Below are positions 4,742 through 24,903 of a stretch of DNA of 24,903 bases, one piece after another. The first letter of the stretch is position 1, and each line of letters starts with the position of its first letter. The translations under genes and the position numbers were made by a program. This stretch comes from a virus: IMG/VR virus record IMGVR_UViG_3300003322_000475, positions 1 to 24,903 of that record; one strand, written 5' to 3'. The notes beneath the pieces were generated by a model. The model had not been told where the DNA came from. It was given only the letters and a program-made list of their open reading frames with translations, and did not search any database.

Positions 4742-4775
4742 CAAAAGTAATACAGAAATTGACATTCGCAACAAA
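4742..4775 (-). promoter_or_regulatory. Bacteroidetes-type promoter for the leftward HTH unit
   Basis: Read leftward: TTTGTTG (4775-4769), 19 bp, then TACTTTTG (4749-4742), a match to the Bacteroidetes consensus TTTG-N19-TAnnTTTG. The expected start of transcription, a few bases further on, gives a leader of about 20 nt before ATG 4717. The dyad at 4762-4778 overlaps the -33 box. Confidence 0.7.
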
Positions 4776-5217: not shown

Positions 5218-5409
5218 TTATGAATTTTTAGAAGTGATAAATTGTTTCATTTCCAGGGCATAAAGTAGCGCTTTAGTAGTTGACCCAAATATGTCTTTAG
5301 CGGCCTTAAATTCCCTGTCTGTGAGCGATACGGCGCGTTTGTGCCTGTACTCATGATCCGGCGGCGCTAATGGCCTGCCGCGTTGTCGTTTTTGGGTTGT
5401 TTGCTTCAT
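5218..5409 (-). CDS. small basic protein, possible DNA-binding, 63 aa
   Basis: Starts MKQTTQKRQRGRPLAPPDHE; the 'RGRP' stretch resembles an AT-hook-like arm. It is followed by 'KRAVSLTDREFKAAKDIFGS' and 'TTKALLYALEMKQF', whose spacing (beta strand, helix, turn, helix) resembles a ribbon-helix-helix or similar small regulator. A right-facing terminator-like hairpin lies just upstream. DNA binding is inferred from composition only. Confidence 0.6.
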   Translation of the reverse strand: MKQTTQKRQRGRPLAPPDHEYRHKRAVSLTDREFKAAKDIFGSTTKALLYALEMKQFITSKNS

Positions 5410-5443
5410 TGGATGTTATTTAAGTTTGGATTTTGAAACCTGG

Positions 5444-7165: not shown

Positions 7166-7198
7166 CAAAGATAAGATCATTTATCTTGGTATTCCAAA
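7166..7198 (-). promoter_or_regulatory. Bacteroidetes-type promoter, leftward
   Basis: Read leftward: TTTG (7198-7195), 21 bp, TATCTTTG (7173-7166). Transcription would begin roughly 15 nt before ATG 7143. It drives the three genes 7143, 6813 and 6572, which end at the UUCG terminator near 6350, a complete small transcription unit. Confidence 0.75.
7168..7187. promoter_or_regulatory. perfect dyad over the -7 box, candidate operator
   Basis: AAGATAA (7168-7174) and TTATCTT (7181-7187) form a perfect 7-bp inverted repeat with a 6-bp spacer (GATCAT) overlapping the -7 element and spacer of the promoter. That is where a repressor would bind. The candidate regulators in the window are the HTH protein at 4717 and the ribbon-helix-helix protein at 16729. 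Confidence 0.5.
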
Positions 7199-11431: not shown

Positions 11432-12010
11432 TTAGTCAAAGTAAAAGAAAACTCTTACGTCTTCTGGTACACCAAGTGTTCTCAATTCTTGAATGTTTGT
11501 GAAGAATGTTTCAGGCAAAAAATCTGTGTACGATTTAATCTCCCCATATCCTGGTTCGACAATCACACAACCATTATACCCTATAACCTTTTCTCTTGAA
11601 TCGTAGATTGTTTCATCTCCTCTTAAGTCCTCGAATTTTTTAGAATAGTCGAAGTCTAGGAGTTCTTTCAAATAAACAAAAGAATGGCCATGGCCTATGT
11701 CGTATAGCCAACTCTTATTTGTCTCTTGCATCGAAAGGGGAATATCTTCTCCACTAAAAGGATTAAACGTATAAGCATGCTTATGTGGCGAATTCAAATA
11801 CTCGCTATCTTCCGGCAGCCCACGACAGTAAGACAAGTATTCTGAATTGCTATCATTACGCATATTCCCCAAGAACCCATACATTGCATAAGACCTCCAA
11901 TTAAATGGGCTGTTACTTTTGTCGGGGGCATCGGTGAATATCTTATCCTCAATTAGAACCCATTTACCCTCTCTTTTAACCTCTACATAGGTTGTCATGT
12001 CAAGTCCCAT
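11432..12010 (-). CDS. MGLDM-family conserved phage protein, 192 aa
   Basis: The frame is open to 12145, but I start at ATG 12010 because the product then opens MGLDMTTYVEVKREGKWVLI. This is the hallmark of a widespread phage/bacterial family (MG.D(I/M)..YVE.R..GKW). Other family landmarks are present: 'NWRSYAMYGFLGNMRN' (near 50-65), 'SYCRGLPEDSEYL' and 'GHGHSFVYLKELLDFDY'. Function is not known to me. The chosen start lies 4 bp after the stop of the upstream gene, so the operon spacing also favours it. Confidence 0.8.
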   Translation of the reverse strand: MGLDMTTYVEVKREGKWVLIEDKIFTDAPDKSNSPFNWRSYAMYGFLGNMRNDSNSEYLSYCRGLPEDSEYLNSPHKHAYTFNPFSGEDIPLSMQETNKSWLYDIGHGHSFVYLKELLDFDYSKKFEDLRGDETIYDSREKVIGYNGCVIVEPGYGEIKSYTDFLPETFFTNIQELRTLGVPEDVRVFFYFD

Positions 12011-12014
12011 AGTG

Positions 12015-12671
12015 TTATTTATTTTCCCGGCACAGCATATTGATGAACGATTCCGCTGCCTTGTTTGCTTTTTCGTGGATTGATTCTGGGGATTCGATAG
12101 TCTTGTTTGGTGCACCGTAGTCACGATAATCATCCCACTGATCATACGTAAACTGATCCTTGAACGCCATGGCGATATTGGCTATCCATCCTTGCCTGTA
12201 CTCCGGGTCATTGTTCAACGCCTCAACCAGGCGAGATATTGGTGATTCTTTAGGAGATATGGGCACAGGTGCTTCCACCATGGCAACATTATCTTTGGGT
12301 AGAGGTATTGTATACGGTAAATAACCAAACAGTTCTTTTAGGTCATCTTGGGTAAAGGTGCCAATAACTTCTTGTGATGGTTTTTCACTGTAAGATCTAA
12401 TGAATTGGTCGAGTCCTTTGGTTTGTTTTATCTTAATAGTTTTTACTAAGATCATTATATCATATCCTAGATAATTAGAGAAAAACAATGTCAAATGCGG
12501 TTTAACAAGATCAACATGGTCTTCAGGTATCTCATCCTCTATATTGATTATACCGTTAGGTGACAGGTGTTTCCCTACCCACTCATATACTGCACTAGCA
12601 CGGTATAGCTTACCGCCCTTTTGTGCGAAGTAATCACCCACCGAGTATGTATCTTTTCGTTCTTCGGTCAT
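12015..12671 (-). CDS. hypothetical protein, 218 aa, two-part
   Basis: The N-terminal half 'YSVGDYFAQKGGKLYRASAV' and onward looks like a beta-rich module. A proline-rich joint (about 120-142, 'LPYTIPLPKDNVAMVEAPVPI') leads to a helical C-terminal half with 'ISRLVEALNNDPEYRQGWIA' and 'NIAMAFKDQFTYDQWDDYRD', ending 'ANKAAESFINMLC'. The C-terminal part resembles short helical domains at the ends of other phage hypothetical proteins. The start overlaps the upstream stop (4 bp). Role unknown. Confidence 0.75.
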   Translation of the reverse strand: MTEERKDTYSVGDYFAQKGGKLYRASAVYEWVGKHLSPNGIINIEDEIPEDHVDLVKPHLTLFFSNYLGYDIMILVKTIKIKQTKGLDQFIRSYSEKPSQEVIGTFTQDDLKELFGYLPYTIPLPKDNVAMVEAPVPISPKESPISRLVEALNNDPEYRQGWIANIAMAFKDQFTYDQWDDYRDYGAPNKTIESPESIHEKANKAAESFINMLCRENK

Positions 12672-13057: not shown

Positions 13058-13426
13058 TTAAAACGTTCTTTCTTCCCACTCTTTTTTTATGTACCGGAAT
13101 GATCGGAAGGTGAACGGGAACTTTTCTGCTGCCACCTTAATCTTCACAAGCGCATCGTCGGTCCAGTAACCTTTGGTCTCGTGCATTTCTAACTCTCCAC
13201 TTGAAAGCATTACCAGGAAATCAGGTCGGTAATGGCAGTTATCCCCTATTTTCAGATTGATGCTATCGAACCACCATTCAACTACTTCTCCTGACTGTTT
13301 TTTCAGACTTAGCAAATCGGCGTACTTCTGCTCGGTCTTATTCATAACACCGGATTTCAAACGTCCTAGTGCTTTGTATCCTTTATTTCCTTTCAGATAT
13401 GTCTTCTTGAATTGTTCAGGTGTCAT
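13058..13426 (-). CDS. DUF1064-type PD-(D/E)XK endonuclease
   Basis: A 122-residue protein with the DUF1064 layout: 'MNKTEQKYADLLSLKKQSGE' followed by VVEWWFDSINL, then 'YRPDFLVML' (PD motif near 69-70) and 'LEMHETKGYWTDDALVKIKV' (E-T-K as the ExK motif, followed by the family's GYW.DDA.VKIKVAAE), ending 'FPFTFRSFRY'. This is a single-domain restriction-endonuclease-like fold carried by many phages and thought to act on DNA during recombination or packaging. All expected acidic and lysine residues are present. Strong family call; the actual substrate is unknown. Confidence 0.85.
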   Translation of the reverse strand: MTPEQFKKTYLKGNKGYKALGRLKSGVMNKTEQKYADLLSLKKQSGEVVEWWFDSINLKIGDNCHYRPDFLVMLSSGELEMHETKGYWTDDALVKIKVAAEKFPFTFRSFRYIKKEWEERTF

Positions 13427-15436: not shown

Positions 15437-15943
15437 TTAATCTATAATTGAGTATTCATTATTGCCATTGTGAACTAAAGTGTTTTTGTCCATCATGATC
15501 CTTATTGTCCGGTATACATGGGTTTGTACTAATAAATTACAATATCCGGTCCTATCTACAATGTATTCATATATTAGCAACCTGGGGCAAGGAGATCCAT
15601 TTTTTTTGATAGCGTCACGTATCCGACTTTCCCAAGTTTCATCATCAATACTTAGGAGTTCTTCCAAAAGATTTAGTGTTTCAATATCTGTACATCTGCC
15701 ACGAAATATTGTATCAAATCCCTTATCAGAGAACTTTAATCCAATGGAGTAAGGGCCAGCTATCTCAATCTGTGTTTTATTCGGATGATCTACACAAAGT
15801 TCAAATTCACCCTTTTGATACCCGTAGCCAGCACCTCTGTATGCACCTATATATTTCCAGCCTGAAGACTCTAATAGTTCTTTTGTTAGGTATTTTTGGT
15901 CATCCATTATTCCCTGAGCAACATGTTTTGAATAATCAGTCAT
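15437..15943 (-). CDS. paralogue of the 15019 protein with extra C-terminal domain
   Basis: A 168-residue protein. It shares 'MDDQKY', 'LTKELLESSGW' and 'IFRGRCTDIETLNLLEELLS' with its neighbour, then carries about 65 extra residues ('CPRLLIYEYIVDRTGYCNLL' and onward) that read as a winged-helix-like module. ATG 15943 is supported by the ATGA overlap with the upstream stop; an internal start at 15907 (MDDQKYLTK) would match the paralogue's N-terminus better. Function unknown. Confidence 0.75.
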   Translation of the reverse strand: MTDYSKHVAQGIMDDQKYLTKELLESSGWKYIGAYRGAGYGYQKGEFELCVDHPNKTQIEIAGPYSIGLKFSDKGFDTIFRGRCTDIETLNLLEELLSIDDETWESRIRDAIKKNGSPCPRLLIYEYIVDRTGYCNLLVQTHVYRTIRIMMDKNTLVHNGNNEYSIID

Positions 15944-16557
15944 TTTGTTGTTTTAATATCATAATAAAATGATTCTCCATCTTCACTTACCCATTTATCT
16001 GAAACTGTTTCCACATTCAAGAATGTATCGTCTACTTTATGAAGTTTTATATCTTCTGGTATTGGCTTTGTTATCCAACTTGAATCTTTCCAGAATATTC
16101 GATTATTAGGTTGAGCCAATAAATAACCATCATCAGATACTAAAATATGAGCACACTTATAATCTGTAGGTTCATCTGAATATGGGTTATTGAACCAATC
16201 CACAGTGAATAAATAAGTAGCCCATACACTAGATTTATCTCTTAATTTTACAATACATTTTAGTAAATCTAAATAATCTAATTTACAAACTGATACATTC
16301 TCGCTAAAGCAATTCCATAATTGTTTAAAGTGTGGTTCTATATCTAAAACTGGTTCAAACATAAATATTTCTGATAAAGGAACACGGCTTCTCATTGCGC
16401 CATAATCAGTCATAATGTGAAATGTCAATATTTTCCCAGGAACCGATTGGATACCAAAAACATAACAATTATCATAAATATGTCTATCCGATTCCGATTT
16501 GGTTAACCAAGATTTTCGAATTAATGCTTTAAATGAAGGTATATTAATATTATGCAT
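15940..16557 (-). CDS. conserved phage hypothetical protein, 205 aa
   Basis: MHNINIPSFKALIRKSWLTK is followed by 'LTFHIMTDYGAMRSRVPLSE', a beta-rich middle, 'HFKQLWNCFSENVSVCKLDY', and later aromatic strands ('SYDEPTDYKCAHILVSDDGY'-like region). The 'DYGAMRSRVP(L/I)' and 'LW.CFS..VSV' segments recur in hypothetical proteins of other phages. No enzymatic motif stands out. Stop overlaps the next start by 4 bp; the N-terminus overlaps the ribbon-helix-helix gene by 8 bp. Confidence 0.75.
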   Translation of the reverse strand: MHNINIPSFKALIRKSWLTKSESDRHIYDNCYVFGIQSVPGKILTFHIMTDYGAMRSRVPLSEIFMFEPVLDIEPHFKQLWNCFSENVSVCKLDYLDLLKCIVKLRDKSSVWATYLFTVDWFNNPYSDEPTDYKCAHILVSDDGYLLAQPNNRIFWKDSSWITKPIPEDIKLHKVDDTFLNVETVSDKWVSEDGESFYYDIKTTK

Positions 16558-16729
16558 TTCTTCCTATTTTTATACCTCTGGCTACTAGAGCTTCAAAACA
16601 TAACATTTCCACCATATTACTGAATGTTCGACGTTCATTCTGTGCTAACTTCAGAATTTCTTCTCGAATATCATCCCCTTTAAAGTATGTATTCTTTTTT
16701 TTCTTTACTGGTTTTTTTTCTTCTGACAT
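16550..16729 (-). CDS. ribbon-helix-helix (Arc/MetJ-like) small regulator
   Basis: I use ATG 16729 (MSEEKKPVKKKKNTYF; 59 aa) rather than the longer frame to 16759, which adds a non-typical hydrophobic start. After a lysine-rich arm comes a strand 'NTYFKGD' and two helices, 'IREEILKLAQNERRTFSN' and 'MVEMLCFEALVAR', the ribbon-helix-helix arrangement. It is the first gene of the long leftward block and is divergent from the late module, so the 138-bp region between them is a natural target. The protein could regulate early and/or late transcription; that is inference. A near-consensus -7 (TATATTTTG, around 16735-16743) lies upstream. Confidence 0.65.
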   Translation of the reverse strand: MSEEKKPVKKKKNTYFKGDDIREEILKLAQNERRTFSNMVEMLCFEALVARGIKIGRNA

Positions 16730-16815
16730 ACTATTCAAAATATAAACAATGATACACACATTTTATCATAAAAGAACACGAAGTAACATAAAAATTAAAC
16801 TTTAAATCATAAATA

Positions 16816-16847
16816 TTTGACAAATAGTATTTTCGATTATAAATTTG
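16816..16847 (+). promoter_or_regulatory. Bacteroidetes-type promoter for the late module
   Basis: TTTG (16816-16819), 20 bp, TAAATTTG (16840-16847). The transcription start would fall near 16854, 14 nt before ATG 16868. The frame open from TTG 16817 overlaps this promoter, which argues against that longer start. This is the best promoter match in the window and heads the whole packaging/capsid operon. Confidence 0.75.
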
Positions 16848-16867: not shown

Positions 16868-17479
16868 ATGCAACCAATAGCAAAGCATGCTTTTGTGCAA
16901 ATGGATAATCCCATGCAACGGGAATACATCTGCGCGAGCGGTATAAAAATACACCTCCCTGATCATGTTCTTAACGCAGAAGAGTGGTGTACCACAGAAT
17001 GTATCTTTTTTTCAGGGGACTTTACTGATGTAGAAGGGGTACCACTACAAAGAGGGGATATTGTCGCAGTAGATTACCGGCTATTGAGTGATTATGAACA
17101 GGATAGCCATGGGTTGAGGACATATAACAGAGTATTGGCAGTAGAAGACCAGGTCGTATGGTATGCCGATGAGTATATGTTGATGGGCGTTTGGCGTGAG
17201 GGCAGATGGGTAGGTATTGGGAAATGGGTTTGGATGACGGAAGTAGATGCCCCTGATCCGGTATCGGATGTTATTCACATCCCAGACAGTTTTAAGTCTC
17301 AAAAAGAGAAAGGACAAGGGGAAATAGTGAGTGGGAATAATCTCCCAATTGGCGAAACCGCCATTTTTGATGAAAAATTCAGGAGCGTATACGATATACG
17401 AGGCATAAAGTATATCATCCTGGATGAAGACCGTATACTGGCACTTAAAATACCCGATTATGGCTCCGATAAAGCGTAA
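16868..17479 (+). CDS. double GroES-like (co-chaperonin) protein
   Basis: Start ATG 16868 (MQPIAKHAFVQMDN; 203 aa), fixed by the promoter just upstream. The C-terminal half (about 134-195) follows the GroES pattern: 'VIHIPD', 'KGQGEIVSGNNLPIGETAIF' (compare G.V..VG...vGD.V.F), then 'GIKYIILDEDRILAL' (compare eyLi..E.dIla). The N-terminal half (about 1-110) looks like a second, more divergent copy: 'IAKHAFVQMDNP', 'SGIKIHLP', 'GVPLQRGDIVAVDY', 'VVWYADEYMLMGVW'. A tandem arrangement would resemble chloroplast Cpn20. T4 gp31 is the precedent for a phage co-chaperonin that works with host GroEL on capsid protein; first position in the capsid operon supports that role. No GroEL gene is in view. 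Confidence 0.6.
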   Translation: MQPIAKHAFVQMDNPMQREYICASGIKIHLPDHVLNAEEWCTTECIFFSGDFTDVEGVPLQRGDIVAVDYRLLSDYEQDSHGLRTYNRVLAVEDQVVWYADEYMLMGVWREGRWVGIGKWVWMTEVDAPDPVSDVIHIPDSFKSQKEKGQGEIVSGNNLPIGETAIFDEKFRSVYDIRGIKYIILDEDRILALKIPDYGSDKA

Positions 17480-17609
17480 AATTCTAAAAATAATCGCCAA
17501 AAGGAGAAATCGGATAAATCCTCCAAAGCCAAACATCCTGCCAAGTTCAGATTCTTGGTATTCTATACAAGTAAAACCACAAGAAAAAGGTAATGGCGAA
17601 ACAAAATAA
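17460..17609 (+). CDS. small very basic protein, 49 aa
   Basis: ATG 17460 (inside the end of the GroES-like gene) to TAA 17609. The product MAPIKRKILKIIAKRRNRIN is strongly basic at its N-terminus, then PPKPNILPSSDSWYSIQVKP and a polar end. It overlaps both neighbours (20 bp and 17 bp) as expected for a packed phage operon. The basic arm suggests DNA or RNA contact, possibly in packaging. The antisense frame 17081-17536 is a shadow. Confidence 0.5.
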   Translation: MAPIKRKILKIIAKRRNRINPPKPNILPSSDSWYSIQVKPQEKGNGETK

Positions 17610-18162
17610 GCAATACGGCAAACGGGTTGGGAATATGGCTATTAACCCGTATTATGAAGGTAATTTAATGGAAATGTACCCCATTTTAAGTGAGTGTTTG
17701 CATGATAAAGTATCCGATAGTTTACTGATAGATAAATATTTTAGATATTGCTCATTTGTTCTTGACCCACAATCGCCTATGTTCAAGGACTACCCGGATA
17801 TGCAGTTAAGGCGTAGGTATGCATCAGATGAAACGGGGTGGGATGGGGTGAAAGACTACAGGATTGAGGTATTGATGTTGAAGAATCTGTATAGGTCTAG
17901 GGAACATTCAATGATCATCACTGCAGAAAATATGATGGACGAATATTTAGACATATTGAACAACCCTTTGTCTATTGAGAATGAAAATGATCTGATCAAA
18001 GCCCTGGATTTGAAAAACAAGCTCATCAACCATTACGAACAGCTCATTGAGTTGAGGGATAAAATGGTTAAAAAGATGAGTGGTGCTGATGAAGACATTG
18101 AGGAAGAATTGTCATTTAATCCTACTCCGGAAAAGATGGCTAAAATGAAAAAAAATGTTTGA
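17593..18162 (+). CDS. candidate small terminase subunit
   Basis: A 189-residue, mostly helical protein directly before TerL (8-bp overlap). It opens with a basic arm (MAKQNKQYGKRVGNMAINPY), then 'ILSECLHDKVSDSLLIDKYF' and 'DMQLRRRYASDETGWDGVKD', and has a long helical second half ('LIKALDLKNKLINHYEQLIE') ending in an acidic/basic tail. Small terminases bind the packaging site and dock to TerL; position, size and helical character fit, but no canonical TerS HTH motif is obvious. Call rests mainly on context. Confidence 0.5.
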   Translation: MAKQNKQYGKRVGNMAINPYYEGNLMEMYPILSECLHDKVSDSLLIDKYFRYCSFVLDPQSPMFKDYPDMQLRRRYASDETGWDGVKDYRIEVLMLKNLYRSREHSMIITAENMMDEYLDILNNPLSIENENDLIKALDLKNKLINHYEQLIELRDKMVKKMSGADEDIEEELSFNPTPEKMAKMKKNV

Positions 18163-20170
18163 GCCGATTAAAGGTGGGTCTATAGTTGATGTACAGGGGA
18201 TGTTTTGTAACATTCCTCCTGTTGGTTATATACAGGATTACACCAATGGCGGTAAACTAAAGAATGTAGGGGTTTACCGTAGGCATAAAATGTTTGATAG
18301 TTGCTTTTGGGAAGTTGACCCGAGATGGAAGCTATATTTGGAATGGAAGAAAGAAGAAGATACCCATAAAAAGCACAACCCTAAGTATCGGCATCCTCAA
18401 TTGGAGGCATTTGTACAAGAAATGTGGCTATATAGGATGGGGGGATTTTGGTTCTATAACAATGATGAGCCAACCTATATCACTGGTCAAAACTGGTTTT
18501 ATTTATCGGTTTATCATCTTGATGTGGGTCTTCCAAAATATAGGGATGCTGACAGAGAATATTTTTATGCGTGGCAACTATGCCAGGAAGACCCAGATTG
18601 CTTTGGTATAACCTACATAACAAAGCGCCGGTCGGGCAAAAGTTATATTTGCGGATGTGTTGCGCTGGAACTAACCACACGAAACGAGAAATTCAATACC
18701 GGCATTCAATCAAAAACAGATGGGGATGCTAAATCTCTTTTCCGTAAAACCATTATAGCACCTTACCGAAAGATGCCCTATTTCTTTCGTCCAGCCAAAT
18801 CTAATATGGATGTTGGTGCTACCGCTCCTGCTACAGAACTTAGGTTTATAGGTAGCAAAATGTCCGATGTTGATGAAGAGCTGGATAGTATGATTGATTT
18901 TAAACCGTCTTTGGAAGGGGCATATGATGGTCAAAAATTAGGATTTTATATAGCCGATGAAGTTGGTAAAGCCCAAAAAATATCAATTCAGATACGATGG
19001 GATATTGTTCAGTTCTGTTTGAAAGACTTTGATGGCCGCATAATTGGCAAAACCATTCACACTACTACTGTAGAGGATATGGACGGGTCAATGAAAGAGT
19101 TCCTGAACATGTGGCAGGGGTCGGATCACACCAATAAGAAAAACGGACAAACTGTTACAGGGATGTATCGTTATTATGTGACCGGTGACAGAGTTAGGTG
19201 TTTGGATAAGTATGGTAAATCTGATAGCGAAAAGGCAACTCAGCAAATACTAGATGCGAGAGAGGCTAAAAGGTCTGATCCGCGCGCATTGTCTGCTCTT
19301 ATCCGTAAAGACCCATTGAATATTAAAGAGTTTTTCTTAGCAGATGCTGATACTTGTGTTTTCTCTGACCCTATTAAACTAAATAACCGACTAGATGAAC
19401 TTAAGTGGAATAAACCTCAATATGTCATTGGAAATTTTGAATGGGTAAACGGGGATCGGGATACAGAGGTAGAGTTTATACCGTGTACTAATGGTAGATG
19501 GAAGGTGATGTATTTACCACCTGAGCATATGCGAAATATGTTCATAATTAGGAATGGTAAAAGGTTCCCTAATAACACATCATCGTTCAGAATGGGAATT
19601 GACCCTTTTGATTATAAGATGGAACACCTGGCGGATCAGAAGCGAATGTCTCTTGGTTCTATCTGGATAAAAAAATGTGAGGACGATTTACATAGTTCAA
19701 TTGTCGATAAGGGTGGGGCTGCAATGTATTTGGCAAGACCTAGTGACCCTAATATCTTCTATGAAGATGCACTAAAAGCAGCATTCTTCTATGGATGTTA
19801 TGCCCTATTTGAAAGAAACAAAAGTAAAATATTGGACTATTTTGAAGATCGGCTTTACGATGATTATTTGTATTGGATACCTGGAGAGAAAGTTAGGGGT
19901 ATTCATAATAGTTCTCAGTCAAAGGGGGGCGGTGTTAATGGTAAAATTTCCGAGTTGACCGATACTTTCATAAATCATCATATAGAATCAATATACTTCC
20001 CAGAAGTTATTGAGCAGTGGTTAAAGTTTAGCCCGGAAGATACTACTGAGTTTGACTTGGCAATGGCATTTGGTTTTGCAGAAATTCTGGACCGGGAGAT
20101 AACAAAGAAGATAAATCGGGTGTCCAGCAATCAAATAAAAGTATCAGATATATTAAGTTTTGTAGATTAA
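18155..20170 (+). CDS. terL: terminase large subunit (TerL)
   Basis: A 671-residue protein. The ATPase half has 'YITKRRSGKSY' (Walker A-like, 157-163), followed by an 'ALELTTRNEKFNTGIQSKTD' strand, and 'LGFYIADEV' (Walker B, D268-E269). The nuclease half begins near 'FRMGIDPFDYK' (D483), as expected for the RNase H-like domain. The unusual lysine/arginine-rich P-loop (KRRSGKS) resembles TerL of uncultured gut/Bacteroidetes phages. TerL drives ATP-dependent DNA packaging and cuts concatemers. An extra N-terminal stretch of about 150 residues precedes the ATPase core and is larger than in many TerL. Length is at the upper end for the family. Confidence 0.9.
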   Translation: MFEPIKGGSIVDVQGMFCNIPPVGYIQDYTNGGKLKNVGVYRRHKMFDSCFWEVDPRWKLYLEWKKEEDTHKKHNPKYRHPQLEAFVQEMWLYRMGGFWFYNNDEPTYITGQNWFYLSVYHLDVGLPKYRDADREYFYAWQLCQEDPDCFGITYITKRRSGKSYICGCVALELTTRNEKFNTGIQSKTDGDAKSLFRKTIIAPYRKMPYFFRPAKSNMDVGATAPATELRFIGSKMSDVDEELDSMIDFKPSLEGAYDGQKLGFYIADEVGKAQKISIQIRWDIVQFCLKDFDGRIIGKTIHTTTVEDMDGSMKEFLNMWQGSDHTNKKNGQTVTGMYRYYVTGDRVRCLDKYGKSDSEKATQQILDAREAKRSDPRALSALIRKDPLNIKEFFLADADTCVFSDPIKLNNRLDELKWNKPQYVIGNFEWVNGDRDTEVEFIPCTNGRWKVMYLPPEHMRNMFIIRNGKRFPNNTSSFRMGIDPFDYKMEHLADQKRMSLGSIWIKKCEDDLHSSIVDKGGAAMYLARPSDPNIFYEDALKAAFFYGCYALFERNKSKILDYFEDRLYDDYLYWIPGEKVRGIHNSSQSKGGGVNGKISELTDTFINHHIESIYFPEVIEQWLKFSPEDTTEFDLAMAFGFAEILDREITKKINRVSSNQIKVSDILSFVD

Positions 20171-20212: not shown

Positions 20213-22702
20213 TTGGCAACGAACCTATTAACAAGCGGATTCCCTGATCCCAATATTGATCCAAGGGATAAGGTAAAGAAGGAGTATTTAATGCAGTATG
20301 CAAATGCTGCATTAAATGTGTACAACGACTGCCCTATTGGTTCTGTGGGATGGAAGAATAGGGATCAATATGCTTTAAATACCGCGTATTCTATGGGAAA
20401 ACAAACCATAGATAAGTACAAGCCTTTATTGATACGCGGCAAGGATAACACCTATAATCAAATGGTGACAGATTGGTCTGTATTGCCAATCCTGTATACC
20501 AAGCGTCAGCAAGCTTTAGGCATCCAAAAGAAGGAATCCCAAAATTATGAGATCAGAGTAAACCCTATCGACCCATTTGCACAGGACGAAGTTCAGGCAG
20601 AGATAGAGTATATGCGGGCTAAATTATTAGTTCGCCAAGCTCTAGAGGCGGCCAATGTAAAAATAACTGCTCCAGAATTAGAAACTCAACCTGGGGAACC
20701 TGAAGATTTGGATGGTATCAATATTATTGAACTGGGCTACCGGCACCGGACAGCTATGGAAGTTGAGCAGGTTCAGGAGTTGATTTTTAACGCTAACGAT
20801 TACGATTCTATTAATGATTATGTGATGCAAGACCTTTTTGATCAGGGTTTTGCTGTAACAAAAGATGAGACTTGTAATAATAGTACAGTAGAAATAAGGA
20901 GGTGCGACCCGGCAAATATTATCCTTAATTATTGTGCTAAGCCTGATTTCAGTGATTTGGTTTACATGGGAGAACTAATTGCCGTACCGGTTAATCAGCT
21001 GGTTGCTATGAGTTCTGGACAAATGACAAGAGAGGAGATAGAGCAAATGTACAATATGGGTAATGCCAACACCTATATGAACTATGGGTTCAACGTATGG
21101 ACTGCATGGGCTACATTTAATGACTTCTGGAATAAGGGTAAGGTTCAGATACTTGACCTTGAATTTCTATCAACCGACAGGGAAGTGGGATACGAATGGA
21201 CTGACAAGCGGAATAATAAAAAATTCAAGGTTGACAATTCTGATCGCAAAGAGCGTAAGACAGATTGGAAGCAAGAAAAGTCAAGGTATGTCCAAAATGT
21301 TTACCGGATTAAATGGATTGTAGGAACTACAATGGCTTTTGATTTTGGTAAACAATACAACATTCCAAGAGAGAAAGGCAACGAGTACAACGCACGTTTA
21401 TCCTATCACCCGGTAGCTATAAACTTACGAAACATGAGGGCATTCAGTAGAACTGAAGCTCTTATATCTTGTGCGGATGCTATACAAATGGCGTTCTACA
21501 AATTACAACACGCCCTAAATAGTGTGGTCCCTAAAGGATATGCTATTGATGTTTCTGCGCTGGAAGAAGTGGCTATCGGTTCTAACGGAGAGAACCTAAG
21601 CCCAAAACAGATACTGGATTTATATTTCAATAGGGGTACATATCTTTTCCGGAGTAAGTCATTAGTAGGTAATGAAAAGTTCCAGATGCCTATTATACCT
21701 ATGGAGTCTGGCGTGGGCAATGAGATAGTGGAATATCAGAATATGATTACCATGAATCTTAACATGATCGACAAAACGCTTGGTCTCAATGATCTTACTA
21801 ATGGGAATACTCCTAACCCTAAAACTCTAAATGGTGCTACGCAGGCAGCAGTACAGGGTACAAACAATTCTCTTTCCGATCTGTTTATTGCAGAGCGAAA
21901 AATGACTCAAAAGGTTGCAAAAAACATAGTAATACGCGCACAAAATATAGTCACTCTGGGGAATGCCGATAAGATGATGTACTCATTAGGTTCTGGCACA
22001 ATTAGTATACTTCGCAGCATAAAAGATATTGATAATTACATATATAGTGTATCAATAGAGGATTTGCCGACCGTTGATGAAATATCTGAATTTGTGCAAC
22101 AGATGCAAATTGCCCAAAGCCAAGGTGAGATAACCATTTCAGATGTTATGATGCTTCAGAATATCAAAAACATGAAGCAAAAACAAATGTTCCTGGCTTA
22201 CCGAGTTCGTAAGAATAAAGAACAGGCGGAACAAGTTGAACAGCAAAAAATGGAAATGAATGGTCAGATTCAGCAACAATCTGCCCAGGTAGCCGAACAA
22301 GCCAAACAGCAAACATTACAAACAGAATGGCAATTACGCCTTCAATATTTGCAGATGGAGAAGGATTTGGATCTAAGGAATCTGAATGTTCAACAGCAAT
22401 ACATGATTGAAGCTAAACGTATTGATGCAACAGGAAGGGTAGAGGCTTCCTTTATTCAGGCAAAAGAAAGGGATGCATCCAACATTAGGAATAATGCTAC
22501 TGCCATAATGAATAGTGAAACTACTCCTGATGAAAAGATAGGGGTTATTGATGTGCCTGCAGAATTGAAGTCTACTGTAGAGCCCCAAACCGCAAATGAG
22601 CAGCCATTAGAAATAGAACCATTGCCATCAATACCATTTTCGTTTGATGATCAACCAGAAATGGAAGAAGAACAAGCTTACCAACAACAACCAACGATAT
22701 GA
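20213..22702 (+). CDS. portal protein
   Basis: An 829-residue protein immediately after TerL. A TAA at 20201 in the same frame leaves TTG 20213 (MATNLLTSGFPDPNIDPRDK) as the first usable start; the next ATG would remove 26 residues. The body carries portal-like features: a long alpha/beta clip/wing region, 'ALISCADAIQMAFYKLQHAL' and 'NEIVEYQNMITMNLNMIDKT' with the conserved 'LGLNDLTNGNTPNPKTLNGA' loop. The last 180 residues are a Gln-rich helical/coiled-coil segment and a Pro/Glu-rich tail. The portal is the dodecameric ring through which DNA enters. The size resembles portals of crAss-like and related phages, but that grouping is unproven. Confidence 0.85.
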   Translation: MATNLLTSGFPDPNIDPRDKVKKEYLMQYANAALNVYNDCPIGSVGWKNRDQYALNTAYSMGKQTIDKYKPLLIRGKDNTYNQMVTDWSVLPILYTKRQQALGIQKKESQNYEIRVNPIDPFAQDEVQAEIEYMRAKLLVRQALEAANVKITAPELETQPGEPEDLDGINIIELGYRHRTAMEVEQVQELIFNANDYDSINDYVMQDLFDQGFAVTKDETCNNSTVEIRRCDPANIILNYCAKPDFSDLVYMGELIAVPVNQLVAMSSGQMTREEIEQMYNMGNANTYMNYGFNVWTAWATFNDFWNKGKVQILDLEFLSTDREVGYEWTDKRNNKKFKVDNSDRKERKTDWKQEKSRYVQNVYRIKWIVGTTMAFDFGKQYNIPREKGNEYNARLSYHPVAINLRNMRAFSRTEALISCADAIQMAFYKLQHALNSVVPKGYAIDVSALEEVAIGSNGENLSPKQILDLYFNRGTYLFRSKSLVGNEKFQMPIIPMESGVGNEIVEYQNMITMNLNMIDKTLGLNDLTNGNTPNPKTLNGATQAAVQGTNNSLSDLFIAERKMTQKVAKNIVIRAQNIVTLGNADKMMYSLGSGTISILRSIKDIDNYIYSVSIEDLPTVDEISEFVQQMQIAQSQGEITISDVMMLQNIKNMKQKQMFLAYRVRKNKEQAEQVEQQKMEMNGQIQQQSAQVAEQAKQQTLQTEWQLRLQYLQMEKDLDLRNLNVQQQYMIEAKRIDATGRVEASFIQAKERDASNIRNNATAIMNSETTPDEKIGVIDVPAELKSTVEPQTANEQPLEIEPLPSIPFSFDDQPEMEEEQAYQQQPTI

Positions 22703-23777: not shown

Positions 23778-24903
23778 ATGTCAGTATCTACAGGAACATC
23801 ATCATTGCAGTACGTATCTGCGTTGTCCCCAAATATTATCCAGCGGGACATCTTCAAAGGACTTATCGATATCCAAATGGATGACGATTGGTATGCCTTT
23901 ATGGAAGGCACTAACCGGCAAATTCCATTTGTAATGCCTAGCCGGGAGGTTGCGGTGGCACCCATCTACCGTAGTTTTTACAATAACCCCCTGAAATCGC
24001 TTATCGATCTTACGGGCGCTACTGTAACCGGTTCAGGAACAACATCTATATCTGTTACAGGGCTTCCTGCAGGCTCCCAAAACATCCTGGTAGTTGGCGA
24101 TTTGATCCGCACTCCAGCAGGCCAAGAGGCCCATGTACAAACCGTTCCTTCTGCGTCCAGCTTTACAGCACAATCAGTGAACGCTACGGTGCTTACAGTT
24201 GCTACTGGGAACAAGTTGGCTCAGGTATCGAATGCTCAAGAAGAAGGATCATCTTCTCCTACTCCTAAGCGTTGGGATGTGGCGGAATTGTCCAATGTTA
24301 TTCAAATCATACGTAATTCATTCCAGTTTACGGACATGGAAGATGTTACTGCGATTGAATTCAACATCAACGGCAAGCCATCATATGTTCTGTTCCAGCA
24401 AATTCAAGCGCTGAAAGACCACAAGGCTGACATTTCCCTGCAAATGCTGTTGGGTAATCTGGGTAGCACTCTGTTTACCGATGCTTCCCCTACACTGTCT
24501 GGCGTAAATGGCCGTGGCGTTCAGGTAACCCGTGGTCTGGATGAGTATACCACTACATATGGGGTAAATGACTCAGTAACAACTCCTGGCGTTATGACGC
24601 TTGCCGATCTGGCTGATCTGGAATCACAGCTTACGGCAGCTCGTGCGCCAATGGACTACTTGGTTATCGGTAATCGTAGCGGTATTTCCCTGTACAGCGA
24701 CTTCCTGCTGAATCTTCCTGGTTCTGGCGGCCTGAACTCTGTACGTTTGCCTTATACAAGTGGAGAGCTTGGTCTGGAAGTATCAGTGTTCAACCATGGC
24801 GGTTACAAGTATCATCTTCGCGCAATGGATGTATTCAGCAATACCAGCGTAATCAACTACGTGGCCTCTGGCACAACTAAGCCTTCAGTTGCCCGGTCTC
24901 TGT
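23778..24903 (+). CDS. major capsid protein, 3' end beyond window
   Basis: ATG 23778 (MSVSTGTSSLQYVSALSPNI) runs without a stop to the edge: 375 residues visible. The N-terminal arm, 'DIFKGLIDIQMDDDWYAFME' helix and 'RQIPFVMPSREVAVAPIYRS' strand fit an HK97-fold shell protein. Residues about 80-150 ('TGATVTGSGTTSISVTGLPA' to 'GNKLAQVSN') look like an inserted beta domain. The A-domain-like part follows ('MDYLVIGNRSGISLYSDFLL', 'HLRAMDVFSNT'). Position after portal and scaffold is as expected. Codon choice shifts here (many CTG, CGT, GCG) relative to neighbours rich in ATA/AGA/AGG, consistent with high expression. Confidence 0.85.
   Translation, partial: MSVSTGTSSLQYVSALSPNIIQRDIFKGLIDIQMDDDWYAFMEGTNRQIPFVMPSREVAVAPIYRSFYNNPLKSLIDLTGATVTGSGTTSISVTGLPAGSQNILVVGDLIRTPAGQEAHVQTVPSASSFTAQSVNATVLTVATGNKLAQVSNAQEEGSSSPTPKRWDVAELSNVIQIIRNSFQFTDMEDVTAIEFNINGKPSYVLFQQIQALKDHKADISLQMLLGNLGSTLFTDASPTLSGVNGRGVQVTRGLDEYTTTYGVNDSVTTPGVMTLADLADLESQLTAARAPMDYLVIGNRSGISLYSDFLLNLPGSGGLNSVRLPYTSGELGLEVSVFNHGGYKYHLRAMDVFSNTSVINYVASGTTKPSVARSL

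Follow-up and report, generated by a model that had tools for sequence, protein, structure and literature searches.

A predicted Cpn20-like tandem GroES protein heading a late gene block belongs to a terminase-linked phage family

The locus described here raises the question of whether a phage gene at the head of a packaging and capsid operon encodes two GroES-like domains in one chain and, if so, what such a double co-chaperonin would be doing there. It is located in a 24.9 kb virus record cut at both ends (this whole stretch is referred to below as the window), so that the absence of a gene from the window means little.

Gene order and signals around the co-chaperonin ORF

The genes to the left of position 16760 are mostly oriented leftward, the leftward genes starting at 16759, and the co-chaperonin ORF is the first gene of a rightward late block, in which it is followed by a 189-aa ORF, the terminase large subunit (TerL), the portal, a 348-aa ORF and a major capsid protein of the SU10 type (Table 1). 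The extent of the ORF and its place at the head of the operon agreed with the first-pass annotation, which had also put it directly before the terminase genes: it is indeed upstream of them, but not immediately adjacent, since the 189-aa ORF is inserted in between.

Table 1. Features of the co-chaperonin locus and their positions in the window
Feature	Position	Strand	Basis
Bacteroidota-type promoter match TTTG-N20-TAAATTTG	16816..16847	+	motif search of window
Tandem GroES-like co-chaperonin (predicted), 203 aa + stop, ATG start	16868..17479	+	ORF, family profile, model, Cpn20 match
N-terminal GroES-like domain, residues 1-109, divergent, boundary approximate	16868..17194	+	hhalign, decoys, P0004 model
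Putative N-domain mobile loop SGIKIHLPDH, residues 24-33	16937..16966	+	alignment with GroES mobile loop
C-terminal GroES-like domain, residues 110-203	17195..17476	+	hhalign, NCBIfam GroES, pLDDT
Putative C-domain mobile loop SDVIHIPDS, residues 133-141	17264..17290	+	alignment with GroES mobile loop
Conserved 189-aa ORF between co-chaperonin and TerL	17593..18162	+	counterpart in L007
Terminase large subunit (TerL)	18155..20170	+	phrog_6681, E=4e-68
Portal protein	20213..22702	+	phrog_6547, E=9e-60
Major capsid protein, SU10 type, cut by window end	23778..24902	+	Pfam SU10_MCP, E=3e-10

The inserted ORF has a counterpart at the same position in locus L007 (36% identity, E=2e-35), the nearest relative; when viral contigs were scanned with the window protein, with the portal and with a TerL pair alignment, none nearer came up. 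By position only, this ORF is a small-terminase candidate. The co-chaperonin ORF was also considered for this role from its position and was ruled out by its fold, the 189-aa ORF fitting the small-terminase position better. No ORF is present between the co-chaperonin and TerL in Elemovirus and phi40:1 (L010, 7299-9929; L012, 8582-11221), where TerL is encoded by a gene with about 200 additional codons (compare 17593-20170 in the window), and the intervening ORF may be a counterpart of the fused TerL N-terminus in these two phages.

The leftward genes gave several separate observations. A 69-aa ORF (16550-16759, minus strand), divergent from the late operon, had a weak match to an Arc-like repressor (phrog_3431, E=8e-4) and is a possible regulator of the switch. 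A 205-aa protein (15940-16557, minus strand) matched phrog_3704, named 'ferredoxin', over its entire length (E=1e-36) with no match in Pfam, and this family name may be doubtful. The ORFs 11432-12145 and 12015-12671, both on the minus strand, overlap by 131 bases, possibly due to a frameshift or an alternative start, and a 122-aa ORF (13058-13426, minus strand) covers only positions 158-291 of 338 in the Holliday junction resolvase family phrog_190 (E=7e-22).

A promoter match ends 20 bases upstream of the co-chaperonin start codon. The Bacteroidota promoter consensus TTTG-N17-23-TAnnTTTG occurred six times in the window against 1.5 expected (2873-2902, 4742-4775, 5400-5428, 7166-7198, 16816-16847 and 18306-18340), with six or more matches in none of 100 shuffles, an enrichment pointing to a probable Bacteroidota host.

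A terminase-linked phage family

A scan of IMG/VR with an alignment of four relatives matched at least 600 stretches, at least 595 of which were confirmed. The relatives bear the database names 'co-chaperonin GroES' or 'cpn10', and most of them are covered in full length by PHROG 13932; the core gene set of Pervagoviridae likewise includes a chaperonin cpn10 (PMC8776804). The window protein itself shared only 11-23% identity with the sampled relatives and gave no match in a direct hmmscan against the PHROG 13932 model. When it was aligned with the L007 protein and used as the hhalign query, its full-length similarity to the family profile, an alignment of PHROG-matching relatives, reached 97.6% (E=4.5e-12, 174 columns), and the gene is a divergent member of this catalogued phage family. 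The downstream sequence extended for 1.5 kb or more in 161 family loci, a few of them originally found through TerL; in 160 of these a TerL-like ORF followed downstream of the tandem gene (about 190 aa), at distances from overlapping to 2.8 kb.

The search of 247 Bacteroidota genomes with the family model, run without a positive control of its own, produced no match at E<=1e-13; with the same model the window protein scored 2.8e-37 and ordinary host GroES only about 1e-10. The sole tblastn match among phage records, MT838999 (E=6), fell inside an unrelated ORF on the opposite strand and was rejected as chance.

Twenty-one distinct records above 40 kb containing the tandem gene, some of them fragments, were surveyed for other chaperonin genes. 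GroEL with a separate single-domain GroES near it was present in six (Elemovirus, ctfjg026, phi40:1 and three IMG/VR contigs), a single-domain GroES without GroEL in two (phi19:3 and phi18:3), and neither gene in the remaining 13, so the tight link of the tandem gene is to TerL and not to chaperonin genes. The GroEL of phage phi38:1 has been detected in infected cells (PMC13288928).

The double phage co-chaperonin had been expected to be unusual; instead, databases already contain it, under GroES names, as part of a large family linked to TerL. What is known is the gene family, present in databases under a single-domain name, and what is new is its architecture and context: a literature search largely confined to sources outside subscription journals found no description of a tandem arrangement in phage co-chaperonins, and the Cpn20-like architecture of the family has apparently gone unremarked.

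Two GroES-like halves

Single-sequence searches gave a faint signal in the C-half: residues 117-192 matched the NCBIfam GroES model NF001539 (E=0.0049), a PDB GroES was matched at E=0.11, and no match was obtained in Pfam, the Cpn10 cut-off not being reached. This cut-off was passed by the C-half of the 204-aa protein of L007, which is located at the equivalent place and was reached with TerL as bait (TerL 48%), and also by the proteins of L002, phi19:3, phi40:1 and Calle_1. In hhalign, the C-half matched the GroES profile at 97.4% (E=1.4e-11) and scored 63.0 against 20.5 for the best of 120 column-shuffled decoys. The N-half matched the N-half of the family at 75% and GroES at 32% (E=4.8e-4), the GroES alignment starting at residue 1, passing the loop and reaching the GD motif, after which the stretch leading to the last strand is longer than in GroES. 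Column shuffling is a mild control, so the case for the N-half rests mainly on structure. A direct comparison of the N-half with the C-half was weak (20%, 10 columns) and thus provides no argument for an internal duplication.

The AlphaFold2 model of the window protein (42-protein alignment, without templates) contained two beta-rich domains with a mean pLDDT of 72.9, the values being mostly 80-93 from residue 151 on and mostly 50-70 in the first sixty residues; the model of P0004, the relative from L002, reached 87.5. The solved structure that best matched each of the two models, at full length and with TM 0.55-0.57, was 7ekq_R, the double-domain Cpn20 subunit of the Chlamydomonas ClpP complex. 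Single-domain Cpn10, GroES and gp31 structures were matched with a probability of 1.00, consistent with a predicted GroES-like beta barrel, at a query TM near 0.3, the value to be expected when one domain out of two is covered. The best match in a viral structure library was the 'Chaperonin cpn10' of phi18:3, again in full length. By profile and model, the window protein is predicted to have a tandem Cpn20-like GroES fold, the C-half being clearly GroES-like and the N-half less firmly so. The initial proposal of a GroES-like C-half, a divergent second copy in the N-half and a Cpn20-like double arrangement was thereby supported: a barrel was predicted and both halves were matched, with the same reserve for the N-half.

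It is very improbable that only the C-half is a GroES domain, with an unrelated or strongly remodelled beta domain attached to it as the N-terminal extension of a single co-chaperonin. Such a reading is favored by the restriction of Pfam/NCBIfam and PDB profile matches to the C-half, by N-half profile probabilities of only 32-55% and by the low N-half pLDDT in the window model; it is at odds with the TM of 0.55 in the full-length Cpn20 alignment against about 0.3 for single-domain GroES, with the confidently modelled N-half of P0004 (pLDDT 79-96 per block) and with an N-half score of 25.8 that exceeded all 120 decoys (best 17.4) in register from the first GroES residue.

The putative mobile loops of the two halves align with GGIVL/GGIII of GroES (the loop of the host GroES reads GGIIIPDTA), the pattern not being identical. 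The core of the C-half loop, I-H-I, has a polar centre, unlike I-V-L in E. coli GroES, and the corresponding loop of L007 is SGLILP. The window protein, L007, phi19:3 and others retain putative GroES-type loops in their two halves, while in a large clade of the ctfjg026 type the N-loop GGIELIV is kept and about 8 residues of the C-loop are lost; ctfjg026 and contigs G005, G007 and G009 carry GroEL and a single GroES together with the tandem gene. In the C-half the roof loop is about 11 residues shorter than that of GroES; gp31 is also devoid of roof loops (PMC6318259). Apicomplexan Cpn20 is reported to retain mobile and roof loops in both domains (PMC3542282), whereas the window protein has the putative mobile loops and a short roof loop in its C-half, for which reason it is termed Cpn20-like and not classed as Cpn20.

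Possible function and comparison with known systems

The most likely function, we infer, is that of a phage-specific GroEL lid helping to fold late head or packaging proteins, and it is rather probable that the protein is a co-chaperonin of two GroES-like barrels capping GroEL in the service of phage late proteins. Alone or joined by a single-domain GroES from host or phage, its chains would build a ring with about seven GroES domains, which would dock on the GroEL ring, binding presumably through the putative mobile loops of both halves, and close a folding chamber for late proteins such as the capsid, portal or terminase proteins. In favor of this reading are the family and predicted fold, the putative mobile loops, the leading place in the late block behind a promoter match and upstream of TerL, the six long records that also encode GroEL and a single-domain GroES, and the precedents of T4 gp31 and of plastid and P. 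falciparum Cpn20. With its roof loop shortened, the C-domain would give a less closed dome, similar to that of T4 gp31, and this short loop, together with the position in the late operon, fits dedicated capsid folding by the host GroEL. Such a ring is hard to square with the numbers, since chains of two GroES domains each do not add up to seven unless a partner joins or one site stays empty; the polar core of the C-loop, the partial loss of this loop in a large clade and the 13 records with neither GroEL nor single-domain GroES count against a co-chaperonin as well. More doubtfully, phages might have independently reached the plastid solution, in which tandem and single GroES (of the phage or host) form mixed seven-domain rings, for example three doubles and one single, tuning GroEL for late proteins.

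The strongest alternative, although unlikely, is a GroES fold that has been taken over for a non-chaperone role in the head or in packaging (for example as a terminase partner or an assembly factor) and no longer works with GroEL. The nearly constant linkage to TerL and the absence of GroEL from most long records would suit it, as would the separate ordinary GroES encoded by some phages, with which the tandem gene is not the sole lid, and the C-loop shortened in one large clade. It is difficult to reconcile with the putative GroES-type loops kept in both halves of several members, and in phi40:1 a virion MS/MS note is attached to several neighbours of the homologue but not to the homologue itself, which argues against a virion component. 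If the co-chaperonin of two barrels is real, a widespread terminase-linked tandem type would extend the Cpn20 architecture beyond plastids; it would pose the same question of seven-fold symmetry in an easily expressed system and allow a direct test of phage retuning of GroEL for virion proteins.

The closest known proteins are those of PHROG 13932 'co-chaperonin GroES', including gp101 of Cellulophaga phage phi19:3, gp089 of phi40:1, cpn10 of Calle_1 and gp33 of Elemovirus, which are likewise about 200 aa long and encoded upstream of TerL and the portal. A His-His pair following the N-domain GD motif is nearly invariant in L002, L003, L009 and most other members; its place is taken by Asp-Tyr in the window protein (residues 69-70) and by Ser-Tyr in L007. 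T4 gp31, the best-studied phage co-chaperonin, has a GroES-like barrel of the kind predicted for the window protein (structural match 1g31_A) and lacks roof loops, differing from the window protein as a single-domain heptamer that covers only about half of the chain (TMq 0.29); it folds the capsid protein with the host GroEL (PMC6318259). The single-domain GroES homologues found in phages with the tandem gene (Elemovirus, ctfjg026, G005, G007 and G009) consist of one domain of about 85 aa and are encoded beside GroEL rather than TerL. The chloroplast Cpn20 of Chlamydomonas (7ekq_R) has two GroES-like domains head to tail, as predicted for the window protein, with 16% identity over the structural alignment, in contrast to the window protein being of plastid origin and having a far less diverged N-half. 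Plastid Cpn20 and Cpn10 form mixed seven-domain rings (PMC5780408), while Cpn20 of P. falciparum can replace GroES in E. coli on its own (PMC3542282), indicating that a tandem lid can work either way.
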